Shown piece after piece: positions 21,987 through 45,527 of a DNA stretch of 45,527 nt. The notes below the pieces were generated by a model. It made no database searches. It had not been told where the DNA came from and worked only from the letters and a program-made list of their open reading frames with translations. The first letter of the stretch is position 1, and every line of letters begins with the position of its first letter. The stretch is taken from assembly GCA_947476195.1 (NCBI GenBank), contig CANJPT010000023.1, forward strand, positions 1 to 45,527, in the 5' to 3' direction. The stretch is from Lewinellaceae bacterium. GTDB lineage: Bacteria; Bacteroidota; Bacteroidia; Chitinophagales; Saprospiraceae. A program made the position numbers and the translations under genes.

Positions 21987-23597
21987 CTACCAGAACACGA
22001 TATACAAGGCGGCCAGAACGCCAATAACCAACATTGCACCAATGGCAAACTGTTGAGAGGTCTTAAACATGGAAGTATCCACTTCCATTGCTTTTGGATT
22101 GTCTTTGCTTTTAGGGTCAGCCAGGCTGATGGCTACCATAAGTGCAACAATGATTGCAAATGCATAGCCCATTTGATCCAGGAAAGGCACGTCCGGCATG
22201 TATCTTTTGAAAGCAATACCCAGTGGAATGGTAATCAGGGCGGCTACCATCGCAGCATTAGCGTTGGCGCGTTTCCAGAAAAAGCCCAACAGGAAGATGG
22301 CTACAACCCCCGGGGAGATCAGCCCGGTAAACTCCTGAATGAACTGGAAGCCTTGCTCAAGTTTTTGCAACTGTGGGGCAACCAGCACCGCGATGACCAT
22401 GGCACCGATGATTACCCAGCGCCCTACGCGTACCTGTTTTTCTTCACCGGCAGCTTTGTCTACATACTTATTGTATAGGTCCAAGGTAAAGATAGTTGCA
22501 ATCGAGTTTGCTTTGCCTGCCAGAGAAGCTACAATGGCTGCGGTCAGTGCTGCGAAAGAAAGTCCTTTCAGGCCTGGCCCGAGCAGATTGAGTAGTACAG
22601 GATATGCCCGGTCTGGCTTTACCTCGCCAGCAGCGTTCAACATTTCCTGTTGAAACATACCTTTCTGGTGCAGTACATAGGCTGCAATACCCGGTAAAAC
22701 CACGATGATCGGCATCAATAATTTCAAAAAAGATGCGAAAAGCAGACCGCTGCGTGCAGTTTCGATCTTAGCGCCCAGGGCTCGTTGGGTGATGTATTGG
22801 TTGCAGCCCCAGTAATTGAGGTTGGCAATCCACATGGCGCCAATGAGTACGGTAAGGCCCGGGAGGACTTTGTAGTATTTGTCTCCTTTTTCAAAGATCA
22901 TGTGGAAGTGGTCAGGTGCCTGGTCTCTGATTAGACTAAGACCAGCTATTGCACCATGCGAGCCAAACTGTTGTGCCACCAGATCCAGGGCGAGATAGGT
23001 CGTAAACAGACCACCCAATACCAGAATGACCACCTGAATAACATCAGTATAAGCGATTACCTTCATACCGCCCAAGGTGATGAAAATAGCAAATATGGCC
23101 AGACCAACCGCACAAGCGGTAAAACTGAATCCTGAAATGGTGCTCACTGCAATGGCGCCGAGATACAGGATAGAGGTAAGGTTCACAAACACATATACCA
23201 GCAACCAGAATACAGCCATCATGGTTGCAACCAAAGGACTGTACCGCTTTTCAAGAAATTGCGGCATGGTAAAAATTCGATTTTTGATATAGCCAGGCAT
23301 AAAAAATACGGCAACAACCAAAAGTGTAGCGGCAGCCATCCATTCATAAGAGGCAATGGCCAGGCCCATGGCAAAACCTGAGCCGCTCATACCGACAAAT
23401 TGTTCAGCGCTGATGTTGGAGGCTATGAGCGATGCGCCAATGGCCCACCAGGTAAGGGAGCCTTCGGCCAGAAAGAAGTCATTTGCGGTGTTTTCGCCAG
23501 ATTTCTTTTTTAGATAAATCCAATAGCCATATCCCGCAACAATGACGAAATAGAGCAGAAAAACGGCATAATCCAATGATTGTAAAGCAGAACCCAT
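21987..23597 (-). CDS. Sodium/solute symporter, SGLT-type (SSS family)
   Basis: The protein has 536 residues with about 14 membrane segments. Family marks: AIGASLIASNISAEQFVGMSG in the first repeat (Na site region), LGGMKVIAYTDVIQV, the sugar-transporter segment ANLNYWGCNQYITQRALGAK, and FAALTAAIVASLAGKANSIATIFTLDLY. This places it with the vSGLT-like sodium/sugar (galactose/glucose) symporters in the inner membrane. A promoter TTG-N17-TACATTTG is present upstream. It is not adjacent to a sugar catabolic operon, although GH1 and GH3 genes lie elsewhere in the window. Exact sugar not determined. Confidence 0.93.
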   Translation of the reverse strand: MGSALQSLDYAVFLLYFVIVAGYGYWIYLKKKSGENTANDFFLAEGSLTWWAIGASLIASNISAEQFVGMSGSGFAMGLAIASYEWMAAATLLVVAVFFMPGYIKNRIFTMPQFLEKRYSPLVATMMAVFWLLVYVFVNLTSILYLGAIAVSTISGFSFTACAVGLAIFAIFITLGGMKVIAYTDVIQVVILVLGGLFTTYLALDLVAQQFGSHGAIAGLSLIRDQAPDHFHMIFEKGDKYYKVLPGLTVLIGAMWIANLNYWGCNQYITQRALGAKIETARSGLLFASFLKLLMPIIVVLPGIAAYVLHQKGMFQQEMLNAAGEVKPDRAYPVLLNLLGPGLKGLSFAALTAAIVASLAGKANSIATIFTLDLYNKYVDKAAGEEKQVRVGRWVIIGAMVIAVLVAPQLQKLEQGFQFIQEFTGLISPGVVAIFLLGFFWKRANANAAMVAALITIPLGIAFKRYMPDVPFLDQMGYAFAIIVALMVAISLADPKSKDNPKAMEVDTSMFKTSQQFAIGAMLVIGVLAALYIVFW

Positions 23598-23825: not shown

Positions 23826-23899
23826 GGTTTCCTGGCCGAGTGGTTAGGCACAGCTCTGCAAAAGCTGCTACAGCGGTTCGAATCCGTTGGAAACCTCCA
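23826..23899 (+). tRNA. tRNA-Cys (anticodon GCA)
   Basis: The acceptor stem GGTTTCC (23826-23832) pairs with GGAAACC (23889-23895), followed by discriminator T and encoded CCA. The D-arm is GGCCGAGTGGTTAGGC, and the anticodon arm CAGCT-CTGCAAA-AGCTG gives anticodon GCA. The T-arm carries GGTTCGAATCC. All four arms fold. A terminator follows seven bases later. Confidence 0.95.
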
Positions 23900-31441: not shown

Positions 31442-32932
31442 ATGGCAAGTCAACAGCCCAAACGAAAAAAAAGAACCCTGCTTTACGTACTCATTGGCGT
31501 ATTCGTGCTGCTCATAGCGGCAGCCGTATACAAAGCCAAACAAAAACCGAAAGGAGAGGAGGTGACGGTTGAAAAGGTCGAGAAGCGTACGATCAAAGAA
31601 ACCGTGAGTGCGAGTGGCAAAATATTCCCCGAAACGGAAGTCAAGATCAGTTCCGACGTTTCTGGTGAGATCATAGCGCTTTATGTGAAGGAAGGCGACT
31701 CCGTAACAGCAGGACAAATATTGGCCAAAATCAGGCCCGATGAATACCAAAGTGCCCTTGAACAAGGCCAGGCCTCGGTAGGTACAGCCCGCTCACAGCG
31801 CGAGATCTCGAGTTCCAATGCGCAAGGAAGCAGTGCTCAAATTGAACAATTGAAAGCCGACAGACAGCGGGTATTGGCCCAACTGGATGTGGCACGCAGC
31901 ACCCACCAACGCAATGAAAAACTGTACAAAGACGGGGTGATCTCTGCCTCAGAATTTGAAACATCCCAGAGCAACCTGAAGTCTGCCGAAAGTGCGGTAG
32001 CTGGTTCTGAAGCCAGTTTGCGTTCCGCTGAAAGCAATTATTCTAGCGCTAAAGCGGGTATCCAGGCCTCTGAATTTGGCATCAACAGCGCCAATGCCCG
32101 CCTGAAAGAACTCCGAACCAGCCTCCAAAAAACCATAGTTACCGCTCCGGTAAGCGGGATCATCAGCAAGTTGAATGTAGAAAAAGGCGAACGTGTAGTG
32201 GGTACCCTTCAAATGGCTGGTACAGAAATGATGCGTGTGGCCAACCTGCGCAGCATGGAAGTACAGGTGGAAGTGAGTGAAAACGATATCCTCAAAGTGA
32301 GCCTCAACGACGAAGTAGATATTGAGGTGGATGCTTACCTGGGCAGAAAATTCAAAGGACGTGTTTCGGAAATTGCAAATAGTGCCAGTAATGTAATCAG
32401 TGGCAGCGCAACCCTCAACACAGATCAGGTGACCAATTTCGTGATTAAAATCCGAATGGATCCGGCTTCTTATGCTGATCTTCTGACAGACGGCAGGCGT
32501 TATCCATTCCGTCCGGGCATGTCGGCTTCGGTGGATGTGTTTACCCATACTGCTGAAGGCCTGACGGTACCTATTATTTCCGTTACGGCCCGCGACGATA
32601 AAAAAGAAGAGGATACCAAAAACAAAAAGGAGGAGGATGAAAAACCCGCTTCGGCCGAGGCTTCGGCGAGTAAAAAAGACAAGGATCTTATAAAGGAAAT
32701 TGTGTTCGTAATGTCGGGTGATACTGTTGGTATCCGGGAGGTTAAAACCGGGATACAGGACAACGATTACATCGAAATCGTATCAGGACTGCAGGAGGGG
32801 GAAATGGTGGTTACCGGGCCTTATTCTGCCATAGCCCGAAAGTTGAAGGGAGGTAGTCAAATCAAGATTGTTGACAAAAATAAAGGAGATGCCACGGATA
32901 AGAAAAGCGGCGTAAAAGTGGAGATCGATTAA
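31442..32932 (+). CDS. Periplasmic adaptor (membrane fusion) protein, MacA/HlyD-like
   Basis: The protein has 496 residues. A membrane anchor (TLLYVLIGVFVLLIAAAVY) is followed by the lipoyl/barrel-sandwich half (VSASGKIFPETEVKISSDVSGEIIALYVKEGDSVTAGQIL). A long alpha-hairpin follows, rich in Ser and Ala (SAESAVAGSEASLRSAE), then the returning half TAPVSGIISKLNVEKGERVVG and a beta-barrel. It is the linker between an inner-membrane ABC or RND pump and a TolC-type channel. A highly charged Lys/Glu insert near residues 380-415 (KKEEDTKNKKEEDEKP) is unusual. No pump or TolC gene is adjacent, so the partner is unknown. The gene sits alone between M15 and a PH-like protein. Confidence 0.92.
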   Translation: MASQQPKRKKRTLLYVLIGVFVLLIAAAVYKAKQKPKGEEVTVEKVEKRTIKETVSASGKIFPETEVKISSDVSGEIIALYVKEGDSVTAGQILAKIRPDEYQSALEQGQASVGTARSQREISSSNAQGSSAQIEQLKADRQRVLAQLDVARSTHQRNEKLYKDGVISASEFETSQSNLKSAESAVAGSEASLRSAESNYSSAKAGIQASEFGINSANARLKELRTSLQKTIVTAPVSGIISKLNVEKGERVVGTLQMAGTEMMRVANLRSMEVQVEVSENDILKVSLNDEVDIEVDAYLGRKFKGRVSEIANSASNVISGSATLNTDQVTNFVIKIRMDPASYADLLTDGRRYPFRPGMSASVDVFTHTAEGLTVPIISVTARDDKKEEDTKNKKEEDEKPASAEASASKKDKDLIKEIVFVMSGDTVGIREVKTGIQDNDYIEIVSGLQEGEMVVTGPYSAIARKLKGGSQIKIVDKNKGDATDKKSGVKVEID

Positions 32933-39466: not shown

Positions 39467-40783
39467 CTATTTGCCCCGCACAAAATTAGACACTGCGTAT
39501 AAGGGGAGCACTTTAATATCATCGTATCGGGCAAAATTTTCAAGAGAGAATCTGAAACCGAAGGGCTTGTTCTTTTCTGAAAGGAATGTACGGAGGCTTT
39601 GCATTTGCCCTTTGCCGGAAGATTTAACCTCCACGGGAAATAATTCATTGTTGCGTTGAATGATAAAATCTACTTCTGCGTTGGCTTTCCCTTCCCGGTG
39701 CCAGTAATACAGCGCAGGCTCCTGGTCAGGCGACTGGTACTTGAGGTACTCAAGTCCCCAAAAATGTTCTGCCAGGACCCCTTTGTTTCCAAAGGCAAAG
39801 TTGCGATCGGTATAAAGCGTTGCCAAATCAAGACCCAGGATGCGCTGGAAAAGGCCCGTGTCCAAGAGTAGTATTTTTCGCTTTTTTTCATTTGATTCGG
39901 CGCCTATGGGGATGATGTTGGCCGCTGTGTGCGTAACAGGTATTACCCAACCTGCCAGTCGAAGTAATTCTAGCGCCTCCTTTGCCTGGTAATCCTTAAT
40001 TTGTTCCGAGGCTTTTGAGTAAATAAACTTCCCGCCGGCCTGACTGACAACTGCATTCAATACTTCCTGTAAACGAAAAACAGGAACCGAATTTTTATAC
40101 TTGGCAAAATCGGAGCGCAAGGTGCGGAGCAAATCATCCAATACAACCTGTACCTGCAATAATTGCTGCGTCTCAGCATATCGCTTGACGGCTTCCGGCA
40201 TGCCACCTGTTACAAAAAAAAGCGACATGAGCGCCACCAATCGCTCGTGCATGATATCGGGCAATGGGTGCTCCATGTCAGCTTTTCTTTTTGCATCGAG
40301 TAACAGGCTTTCTCCAGCGGCCTCCAAAAATTCGTCAAAAGAAAACGGAAACATATAATAAGACCTCACCCGCCCAACGCCGAAGGAGGGCAACGATTGT
40401 AGCGCAAATTCAAGCAGAGAACCTGCTGCAATCAGATGCAAAACCGATTCCTGTTCGTAGAAAAATCGCATGGCTGAAATGGCTTTCGGACAGGCTTGTA
40501 TCTCATCAAAAAACAAAAGTGTTTTGCCCGATACAATTTGCTTTCCGCGCATCACCGATAACTGTTCAATAATTCTGGCAGGGGTTAAATCACTTTCAAA
40601 AACAGTCTTGAAGTGCGGTTTTTCTTCGAAATTGATTTCCATGAAATCTTCAAAGCTTTCGGCGAGTTGCCGTACAGCCGATGATTTCCCTACCTGGCGG
40701 GCGCCTCTCAGGATCAGAGGCTTCCGATAGCGGTCGTTTTTCCACTCCAATAAGTAGTTGTCTATTTGTCTATTAAAGTACAT
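39467..40783 (-). CDS. AAA ATPase with DUF4143 nuclease-like C-terminus
   Basis: The protein has 438 residues. Walker A is GARQVGKS (27-34) and Walker B is FFDEIQ (91-96). The C-terminal half holds the DUF4143 domain with an AEVDFIIQRNNELFPVEVKSS segment, the E/D-x(10-15)-E-x-K arrangement of PD-(D/E)XK nucleases. This large, mobile family is common in archaea and Bacteroidota; its physiological role is unclear. It is cytoplasmic. A TATGTTTG box at 40833-40840 and a 16-base direct repeat lie upstream. It overlaps the T9SS fragment region at its 3' end and probably arrived by transfer. Confidence 0.92.
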   Translation of the reverse strand: MYFNRQIDNYLLEWKNDRYRKPLILRGARQVGKSSAVRQLAESFEDFMEINFEEKPHFKTVFESDLTPARIIEQLSVMRGKQIVSGKTLLFFDEIQACPKAISAMRFFYEQESVLHLIAAGSLLEFALQSLPSFGVGRVRSYYMFPFSFDEFLEAAGESLLLDAKRKADMEHPLPDIMHERLVALMSLFFVTGGMPEAVKRYAETQQLLQVQVVLDDLLRTLRSDFAKYKNSVPVFRLQEVLNAVVSQAGGKFIYSKASEQIKDYQAKEALELLRLAGWVIPVTHTAANIIPIGAESNEKKRKILLLDTGLFQRILGLDLATLYTDRNFAFGNKGVLAEHFWGLEYLKYQSPDQEPALYYWHREGKANAEVDFIIQRNNELFPVEVKSSGKGQMQSLRTFLSEKNKPFGFRFSLENFARYDDIKVLPLYAVSNFVRGK

Positions 40784-43426: not shown

Positions 43427-44302
43427 ATGCAACCCACACTTTTGATTTTAGCTGCCGGCGTTGGCTCCCGTTACGGAGGCCTGAAACAAGTAGATGGCAT
43501 GGGCCCCGGCGGCGAAGCCATTCTTGAATATTCCGTAGACCAGGCTATTCGGGCAGGGTTTGGAAAAGTTGTTTTTGTGATCCGAAAAGAGATTGAGGAT
43601 GCTTTTCGTGAAAAAGTAGGGCATCGTGTCGAATCCAGGATCAAAACAGAATACGCCTTCCAGGAGTTTGATTCCTGTCTTGATTGGCTCGCCGAAAAAC
43701 CCCACCGGGAAAAACCCTGGGGTACTGGTCATGCCATCCTTTCGGCCAAGCACCTGCTGAACGTGCCTTTTGCTACGGTCAATGCCGATGACTTTTATGG
43801 CGCAGATGCATTCTTGCAACTGGGAGAATTTCTCCAGAACGAATGCTCACCCAGCGCTTACGGAATGGTAGCGTATCAATTAGGCAACACCCTGTCTGAA
43901 AACGGTGCTGTGTCCCGAGGTGTTTGTGCCGTAGACGATGAAGGTTTTTTAAGTGGAGTGACTGAGCGCACCAAAATAGAACGCAATGCTGAGGGCATTC
44001 ATTATAGTGATGAATCAGGACTGCATTTTTTGGCCGACACGACACCGGTTTCAATGAATCTCTGGGGACTACATCATTCCGTTCTGGACGAAATAGAAAC
44101 CCAGTTCCGCGCATTTGTACGGGAAAATATGGAAAAGCCCAAAGCCGAATTTTATATCCCGACTGTTATTAACAACCTGATTGAAGGTGACGAGGTTCGC
44201 CTCAAGGTACTTTATAGTAACAGTCAGTGGTATGGCGTTACCTATCCGGAAGACAAGGCTACCGTCCAGGAAGCCTTGCAAGAAATGGGCAGCATCCTTT
44301 AA
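43427..44302 (+). CDS. Sugar-1-phosphate nucleotidyltransferase-like protein
   Basis: The protein has 291 residues. The N-terminal LILAAGVGSRYGGLKQVDGMGPGGEAILEYSVDQAIRAG is the NTP-transferase signature (LAAGxGxRxGxxK), and VNADDFYGADAF is the metal-binding Asp motif. Usually NDPs of this kind activate sugar-1-phosphates or related alcohol phosphates for glycan or lipid synthesis; substrate unknown. The G-rich GMGPGGEAILEYS insertion is typical for this Bacteroidota group. Its stop TAA (44300-44302) overlaps the TAA of the convergent gene within TTAA. Divergent from GH3. Confidence 0.9.
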   Translation: MQPTLLILAAGVGSRYGGLKQVDGMGPGGEAILEYSVDQAIRAGFGKVVFVIRKEIEDAFREKVGHRVESRIKTEYAFQEFDSCLDWLAEKPHREKPWGTGHAILSAKHLLNVPFATVNADDFYGADAFLQLGEFLQNECSPSAYGMVAYQLGNTLSENGAVSRGVCAVDDEGFLSGVTERTKIERNAEGIHYSDESGLHFLADTTPVSMNLWGLHHSVLDEIETQFRAFVRENMEKPKAEFYIPTVINNLIEGDEVRLKVLYSNSQWYGVTYPEDKATVQEALQEMGSIL

Positions 44303-45084
44303 AGACAATCCCAGTCATACAATACCCGCGAAAAGTCCAGCGCGGCCAGGTCATTTTTTCGAATAAAAAAATGACCTACACCCATATCGCCCCACATCAA
44401 GTCCATACGCTCATCCGAGTCTAACTGCAACAATAAGATCATGGGGTCTTCGAGCCGGCGTGGATCGTCCTGTGTGAAATAGGCGTAGCCCCCGATTTTA
44501 TGTCCTTGTGAACGGATCGACTTTTCCAGTTGCCCCATTACGTCCCATTCATTTTCGCCAAACTGGCGAAAAAATTCGCTTCCAAAGAATTGATAGAATT
44601 GGTAATCTGAGATTGGCACAACCTCTTCATCAATTGTAAACACGAGCGGATAACTTTCATCCGGATGATGTGGAAGTAATTCTGCCTCCCAATCTGTTGA
44701 GGGTAATTTGGTTTGTAACAGAGATTCCTGCTCGATCACTTCCGGATGGAAGAGTACTCTGAAAGTATCCGGGTTCTCGCCATCATCGAAGTCCATACCA
44801 TAGAGGTCATCGTCATTGATAAAAAACTGCACGATCCCTTTGGACGGAAACGGTTCAAGCGCGGGTACTTCTGCAAAATTTATTTGCGCGAGAAAACAGA
44901 GCGTTTGCCCATCCGGCGCCATTGGCCAGTCTAATCCTTTCGGTAAATAGGGTTGGCCTCCTACCTTACTTTCCCAAAGCTTAGTTTTGCGGGGAGCTTG
45001 CGAGTTCGCTTTGATAAAAGTTGTTTTGGTCTCTAAAAGCTGTTGACGGTAAGGCTCGAGGGCCTGAGGAATTTTAATTTTCAT
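44299..45084 (-). CDS. DUF1963 (YwqG-like) protein
   Basis: The protein has 261 residues from ATG 45084; the longer frame to 45120 is less likely because the -7 box at 45118-45125 would lie on top of it. Family marks are SKVGGQPYLPKGLDWPMAPDGQTLCFLAQINFAEVP, GIVQFFINDDDLYGMDF, and HKIGGYAYFTQDDPR... LLLQLDSD... WGDMGVGHFFI. This is DUF1963 (YwqG/YwqG-like beta-barrel), frequently near toxin or immunity genes but without known activity. Cytoplasmic. It is the last protein gene before the 23S rRNA gene, transcribed in the opposite direction. Confidence 0.9.
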   Translation of the reverse strand: MKIKIPQALEPYRQQLLETKTTFIKANSQAPRKTKLWESKVGGQPYLPKGLDWPMAPDGQTLCFLAQINFAEVPALEPFPSKGIVQFFINDDDLYGMDFDDGENPDTFRVLFHPEVIEQESLLQTKLPSTDWEAELLPHHPDESYPLVFTIDEEVVPISDYQFYQFFGSEFFRQFGENEWDVMGQLEKSIRSQGHKIGGYAYFTQDDPRRLEDPMILLLQLDSDERMDLMWGDMGVGHFFIRKNDLAALDFSRVLYDWDCL

Positions 45085-45117
45085 GTAAAAATCGTAAACA
45101 ATGTGTGTTTTTGAGGC

Positions 45118-45125
45118 CAAAAATA
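45118..45125 (-). promoter_or_regulatory. -7 box of the DUF1963 gene
   Basis: TATTTTTG on the minus strand fits TAnnTTTG and lies 33 bases before ATG 45084, supporting that start. Confidence 0.5.
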
Positions 45126-45164
45126 GCCTTTTTAAAAAATATCAAAAAAAACTTTTAAAATAAC

Positions 45165-45196
45165 TTGGTCGTACCCGATTTAGAATTCTACCTTTG
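45165..45196 (+). promoter_or_regulatory. Promoter in front of 23S rRNA
   Basis: TTG at 45165-45167, a 21-base spacer and TACCTTTG at 45189-45196 match the Bacteroidota consensus. An AT-rich stretch (45130-45162) precedes it like an UP element. Confidence 0.75.
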
Positions 45197-45384
45197 CCGC
45201 CCCAAACGAAAGAAACACGTTGTACACCACACTTTTTAAGAAGTTATAAAGAAGTGGTTTCACGATAAAAGTTCATTGACAAGACTGGAAGGAACAGAAG
45301 TAGAAAGGTAAAAGTAATTGAGTCAAATGAGTAATCCGTAAGGATGCTTAATGATAATTCTAATCTATTATGATTAGGAAAGAG

Positions 45385-45527
45385 TAGGAAGTGAATAAGG
45401 GCGCATGGGGGATGCCTTGGCTCCTGGGGGCGACGAAGGACGCGGTAAGCTGCGAAAATGCGCGGGTAGGTGCAAACGACCGTTTGATCCGCGCGTGTCC
45501 GAATGGGGAAACCCCACAGATTGAAGA
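45385..45527 (+). rRNA. rrl: 23S ribosomal RNA, 5' end (partial)
   Basis: From 45385 the sequence aligns with the start of bacterial 23S rRNA. AAGTGAATAAGGG, GGATGCCTTGGC, GGCGACGAAGGACG, TAAGCTGCGAAAA and GAATGGGGAAACCC are in the usual order and spacing. The gene runs off the window end. The 5' end was placed by counting back from the GATGCC landmark. No 16S rRNA gene precedes it, and a protein gene on the opposite strand lies only about 300 bases upstream. Confidence 0.95.

Follow-up and report, generated by a model that had tools for sequence, protein, structure and literature searches.

The stretch of DNA analysed here, called the window throughout, is contig C23 (45,527 bp) of G000, the genome of an uncultured Lewinellaceae bacterium (Saprospiraceae in GTDB), which measures 4.76 Mb in 224 contigs and is 97% complete. 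At its end lies the 5' end of a bacterial 23S rRNA gene (45385..45527, + strand; Rfam RF02541, model 1-142, 100 bits), which is truncated after 143 nt because the contig stops at exactly 45,527 bp. A preliminary description of this DNA had placed a minus-strand DUF1963 gene 300 bases upstream, and such a gene is indeed found at 44299..45084 (-; Pfam PF09234, E 3.6e-67), starting with ATG, divergent from and outside the 23S transcript, with 300 nt between the two. The same description held that the 23S gene has no 16S gene before it, and this proved correct, as Rfam finds no 16S rRNA gene in the whole window, ~45 kb 5' of the 23S gene; tRNA-Ile and tRNA-Ala are also absent from the window, the sole tRNA being a tRNA-Cys at 23826. 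The locus therefore departs from the linked layout of Bacteroidota, where 16S, tRNA-Ile and tRNA-Ala stand immediately 5' of 23S, and its 23S gene counts as unlinked under the threshold of PMC7761764, more than 1500 bp from 16S to 23S. An AAA_14/DUF4143 ATPase gene occupies 39467-40783 (-) of the window.

Predicted promoter, leader and processing stem

The gap between the DUF1963 and 23S genes had been said to hold a consensus promoter, and the corresponding sequence, TTG-N21-TACCTTTG, is present at 45165..45196 (+), in agreement with the TTTG (-33) and TAnnTTTG (-7) consensus that PMC7366714 gives for the primary sigma factor of Bacteroidota. The pattern TTG-N21-TANCTTTG has one match in the window against 0.12 expected (12 of 100 shuffles contained a match), and taken alone it could be due to chance at about the 10% level. 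Stronger evidence for a promoter comes from the constant spacing in the genus, where exactly 21 nt separate TTG from TACCTTTG in 8/8 23S leaders, all of which also have an A/T-rich tract 5' of the promoter and a C-rich start region 3' of it. This tract, a possible UP-element, spans 45127..45162 (+) in the window, just 5' of the promoter, with 89% A+T, the equivalent tracts of the eight leaders ranging from 69 to 92% A+T. Among 24 16S leader loci from the genus, the spacing between TTG and TACCTTTG is 21 nt in 18 and 20 nt in one, and in the remaining five, including L038, which is a wrong downstream match, TTG was not found at a spacing of 17-23. The layout common to 16S and 23S leaders suggests promoters of one class on both units, and the sequence proposed as the promoter of the 23S unit is conserved in the genus. 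We do not claim that a 16S promoter was duplicated onto the 23S gene within this genus.

The putative pre-23S leader runs from 45203 to 45384 (+); a transcript start near 45203, as proposed in the preliminary description, agrees with the position of the promoter, from which the start itself is deduced. Within the leader is a boxA-like element, GTTCATTGACA (45271..45281, +), which has a single match in the window against 0.02 expected from shuffles and whose 3' tail overlaps the processing stem described below. By its resemblance in sequence we take this element to be like the boxA of rrn antitermination, where NusB/NusE bind, and it may have such a role here. Identical or near-identical elements occur in 16S leaders of the genus, and the linked spacers of Flavobacterium also have one, which is true by construction, the element being part of the search pattern. 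Three pairs of 16S leaders, each pair from one genome (L049/L056, L044/L055 and L291/L292), are near-identical from the boxA-like element onwards, as far as they could be read, and diverge 5' of it, as if gene conversion ended there.

The resemblance of the leader to a pre-23S spacer, also remarked on at the outset, is supported by its complementarity to the DNA behind a 23S gene. G000 has two 23S 3' ends: contig C27 carries one together with a 5S gene, and contig C71 carries that of a second 23S gene. The 5' arm of the predicted pre-23S processing stem (45271..45398, +) pairs with the 23S-5S spacer of C27; the duplex of leader and spacer reaches -78.1 kcal/mol (z -6.6), with 0/200 shuffles as low, vs -39.7 kcal/mol (z -1.5; 14/200 shuffles as low) for the spacer of C71. 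The pairing therefore ties the window to C27 and not to C71, and through this predicted link 5S probably stays with 23S in G000, as it usually, though not necessarily, does where rRNA genes are unlinked. Leaders also pair with their own 23S-5S spacers in G034 (z -5.2, 0/200 shuffles as low), G013 (z -6.9, 0/200) and G033 (z -3.2, 2/200), and a run with shorter arms gave z -3.2 for G034 and -8.1 for G013. The own pair ranks best among 11 spacers in G034, G013, G033 and G000, with spacers of close relatives nearly matching it (in G034, -75.1 for the own pair vs -73.1). The leader of G021 does not pair with the single 23S 3' end known from that genome (z +1.9), and this end may therefore come from another copy. 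An equivalent test of the 16S processing stem returned z -0.8 to 0.2 and is without power.

rRNA gene ends and the number of operons

A DNA query with the window region found matches in 13 of 42 genomes of the genus, G000 counted, and at 10 of the 13 matched loci Rfam recognised a 23S 5' end. With the window counted, no 16S gene lies upstream in 8/8 of these 23S starts with readable upstream DNA (3.8-45 kb), the other two (G007 and G004) being unreadable just 5' of the gene. The 16S side of the genus was read in a set of 11 3' ends plus that of G027, three contigs being followed to 12 kb, and 12/12 of these ends, from 11 genomes, have no 23S gene in 3.2-16.8 kb of downstream DNA. According to ARAGORN, three of the 12 are followed by tRNA-Ile and tRNA-Ala, four by tRNA-Ile alone and five by neither. 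The 3' flank of the G033 16S gene has a truncated tRNA-Ile and then a terminator-like hairpin. When the DNA 3' of three stand-alone 16S genes was scanned for terminators, L178 had a single long hairpin, L181 likewise, and L182 two short hairpins, numbers that are close to the shuffle counts. Two 16S 3' ends of G005, on contigs C52 and C33 (L177 and L178), share a flank of ~65 nt, past which one continues into tRNA-Ile and tRNA-Ala and the other directly into a terminator-like hairpin.

For G000 itself, whole-genome Rfam scans missed the genome's own 23S gene; their zeros were left unused and DNA queries were used instead. The genome search that the preliminary description had suggested located 5S, on C27 with the 23S 3' end, and no 16S gene; 16S-type leaders, classified by similarity, are present on C27 and C35. 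Of the 23S sequence, the first 143 nt and ~157 nt of 3' ends are known. The genome shows two 23S 3' ends and these two 16S-type leaders vs one 23S-type leader. One end of C27 (43 kb; L243, L291) carries its 23S 3' end with 5S, and the opposite end, on the same strand, its 16S-type leader with a promoter, which would probably place a 16S gene ~43 kb downstream of that 23S-5S.

The leaders of the whole genus were counted with the exact pattern RAGTTCATTGACR, which gave 107 matches, every one of them read with its flanks; leaders with a variant boxA escape this pattern. One promoter-bearing 23S-type leader was found in each of 12 genomes and two in none, the leaders of G008, G012 and G027 being classed by similarity only, at a contig end, and those of G008 and G012 weakly so. 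Of these 12 genomes, which were selected by the presence of a 23S-type leader, 6/12 have a doubled 16S-type leader (in four of the six pairs the class was assigned by similarity, at contig ends), 4/12 have a doubled 23S 3'/5S end, and none has a doubled 16S 3' end or 23S leader. Outer ends are thus doubled in 10/24 cases vs 0/24 for inner ends (Fisher p 3e-4, 12 genomes), or in 8/24 (p 0.002) when G027 and G030 are left out. The paired leaders of G027, and likewise those of G030, have similar promoters and are 70-71% alike over 500 nt, and are therefore hardly strain variants. A split trait of the whole genus was considered and was dropped after these end counts. The preliminary description's suggestion of a split rRNA arrangement accordingly holds for the 23S gene of the window and for its relatives in the genus, and is not established genome-wide, given the numbers of leaders and 3' ends in G000 and the counts in the 12 genomes.

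We consider it likely that the window is the start of a stand-alone 23S-5S unit that resulted from the break of one of two operons, and that the second locus is probably linked; G000 would then probably have one split pair and one intact operon, the spacer contig of the latter being short and unbinned. No linked 16S-23S contig was seen in any genome bearing a stand-alone 23S leader, and the intact second operon therefore rests on the end counts. The same absence would be expected if all rRNA genes were split, giving two stand-alone 16S genes and two stand-alone 23S-5S units, an arrangement to which we assign a minor but real chance and which would also account for G005, a genome outside the 12 that has two 16S 3' ends, neither with a 23S gene, and so tells against the split-plus-intact count. 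Against it stands the lack of a second 23S-type leader in all 12 genomes, despite their doubled 23S 3'/5S ends and 16S leaders. In G000, moreover, the window leader does not pair with the 23S 3' end on C71, and the bin lacks a further leader of this type, as is expected if that leader sits in a short unbinned spacer contig.

Other genomes of the genus show further end patterns. G019, G022 and G035 each have two 16S 5' ends, two 5S ends and zero inner ends, the pattern expected of two linked operons. The near-complete genomes G007 and G009 may also be linked; ~2.5 kb 5' of one 23S copy in each, G007 shows by eye an TACCTTTG element and G009 an A/T tract resembling those that precede 16S promoters, the strict promoter pattern having no match at these sites and 16S not being visible there. 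Neither such an element nor such a tract was seen upstream of 23S in G004. A leader-like match in the latter genome (L272, contig C544) lies near the contig start, with no visible promoter and neither rRNA gene just 3' of it.

Recurrence of the junction and a proposed origin

The junction of DUF1963 gene, promoter and 23S gene is found in four species, represented by G000 and by G033, G060 and G021, the latter three from different accession series, with DUF1963 orthologues of 68-80% identity. Other 23S neighbourhoods are shared as well: a transporter gene and tRNA-Cys stand beside 23S in both G034 and G030, and G013 and G026 have another gene in common, 0.3 and 7.6 kb upstream of 23S. The 23S-5S unit of G034 sits between orthologues (69-71% identity) of a sodium:solute symporter gene with tRNA-Cys on one side and an HlyD-type gene on the other. 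In the window these genes (symporter, 21987-23597, -; tRNA-Cys, 23826-23899, +; HlyD-type, 31442-32932, +) lie 12-22 kb from 23S, and the HlyD-type gene is inverted relative to 23S compared with G034. By gene order, the two genomes appear to differ by local rearrangement around the 23S gene.

That the window might hold a dead 23S copy kept alongside intact operons is a reading we regard as very improbable: a second 23S 3' end is present and the 23S gene of G000 is known in part, as such a copy would allow, but the promoter, boxA-like element and processing stem are all conserved, and the stand-alone 23S genes of G034 and G013 are full-length (2631 and 2671 bits) and form complete units with 5S. 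Least probable of all is a chimera or mis-joined repeat in which a normal operon was stitched to unrelated DNA. The preliminary description had named a chimera as a caveat, and in its favour this MAG contig terminates within a repeated gene; it is contradicted by the repetition of the DUF1963 junction in three related MAGs, by the recurrence of the gene-tRNA-Cys-23S junction and by the entire 23S-5S unit within a 377-kb contig of G034.

For the break of one of two operons, the following course may be proposed. One rRNA operon would have broken between its 16S(-Ile-Ala) part and its 23S gene. RNA polymerase would then initiate on the 23S side at an rRNA-class promoter, made up of the A/T tract, TTG-N21-TACCTTTG and the C-rich start region, of the class found on the 16S units, and the boxA-like element in the leader would probably recruit antitermination factors. 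Pairing of the pre-23S leader with the 23S-5S spacer could allow 23S to be excised, presumably by RNase cutting, without the 16S half. With matched promoters and leaders, the two separate units, 16S and 23S, may stay balanced in output, and a second rRNA locus, probably a linked operon, would persist in the genome.

Linked and unlinked rRNA genes in other lineages

In a collection of species genomes, a boxA-to-23S pattern found 72 loci, mostly from Flavobacterium. A 16S gene lies upstream in 60 of them; six have none, all from the genus of the window, and six were unjudgeable (four being contig starts). The linked Flavobacterium loci run from 16S, usually through tRNA-Ile and tRNA-Ala, to 23S; this operon shares with the window the boxA-like element 5' of 23S and differs from it by the 16S gene before 23S. 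Two MAGs titled Gammaproteobacteria (L113 and L116) also have a contig with the Bacteroidota-like pattern in a linked operon, probably through binning contamination.

An order-wide search gave matches in 78 of 298 genomes, and the best 30 loci outside the genus were examined. Among these 30, 15 are linked (including five from three further genera of the window's family), 12 have insufficient readable upstream DNA and three (G038, G113 and G044) have no 16S gene within 1.5 kb, 16S being still absent over 7 to 10 kb 5' of 23S. Stand-alone 23S genes are present in two other families too. G038 has one 16S match and one 23S match, on separate long contigs, with a near-identical promoter block (by eye) in both leaders; G113 and G044 have a promoter-like match 5' of the stand-alone 23S gene, the order in G044 being promoter, tRNA-Ala, 23S. 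G131, from the family of G038 and G113, is linked. No promoter-like match was found within 600 nt 5' of 23S in 12 of the 15 linked loci, and the three with a match have it in the spacer (G164), inside the tRNA region (G051) or before the tRNAs (G322). A TAnnTTTG-like spacer element is present in the linked loci of G164 and G243, which belong to one genus; the element of G243 was recognised only by eye and lacks a clear -33 counterpart. These genomes can tentatively be arranged as a stepwise break-up of the operon, an ordering we put forward as possible rather than probable, from a spacer promoter (G164 and, by eye, G243), through the splitting of one of two operons with a twin of the 16S promoter on 23S (the genus of the window), to separation with near-identical promoters (G038). 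If this series were true, the spacer promoter would arise first and render separation harmless.

Unlinked rRNA genes in bacteria were reportedly described by Brewer et al. in 2020. The reduced genomes of Buchnera and Wolbachia are those of insect symbionts, whereas the window genome measures 4.76 Mb. Judging by the titles of papers on them, both have 23S-5S operons unlinked from 16S, the likeness to the window being the stand-alone 23S-5S. PMC7761764 reports 574 unlinked and 270 'mixed' genomes among 15,521, mixed genomes being those with linked and unlinked copies together, and CPR bacteria with 16S unlinked from 23S-5S are reported in PMC8172020. The emphasis of these two papers lies on symbionts, CPR, Chloroflexota, Spirochaetota and Campylobacterota, whereas the genome considered here is a Bacteroidota genome of 4.76 Mb; the main text of PMC7761764 contains no word beginning 'Bacteroid', and its genome table may hold such cases. 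Narrow word searches of the literature returned no paper linking unlinked rRNA genes to Saprospiraceae, Chitinophagales or Bacteroidota rRNA operons. The arrangement is known in other bacteria and little noted in Bacteroidota, and the window genome is best read as an example, from a lineage of this phylum, of the known class of 'mixed' rRNA genomes.

Unlinked genes are given in PMC7825169 as one likely reason for taxa being absent from long-amplicon data. Surveys based on long 16S-ITS-23S amplicons would overlook split copies such as those of this genus. The usual explanation for linked rRNA operons is that 16S and 23S are required in equal amounts, and a single lineage in which split and probably linked copies occur together with matched promoters would permit this idea of equal output to be tested.
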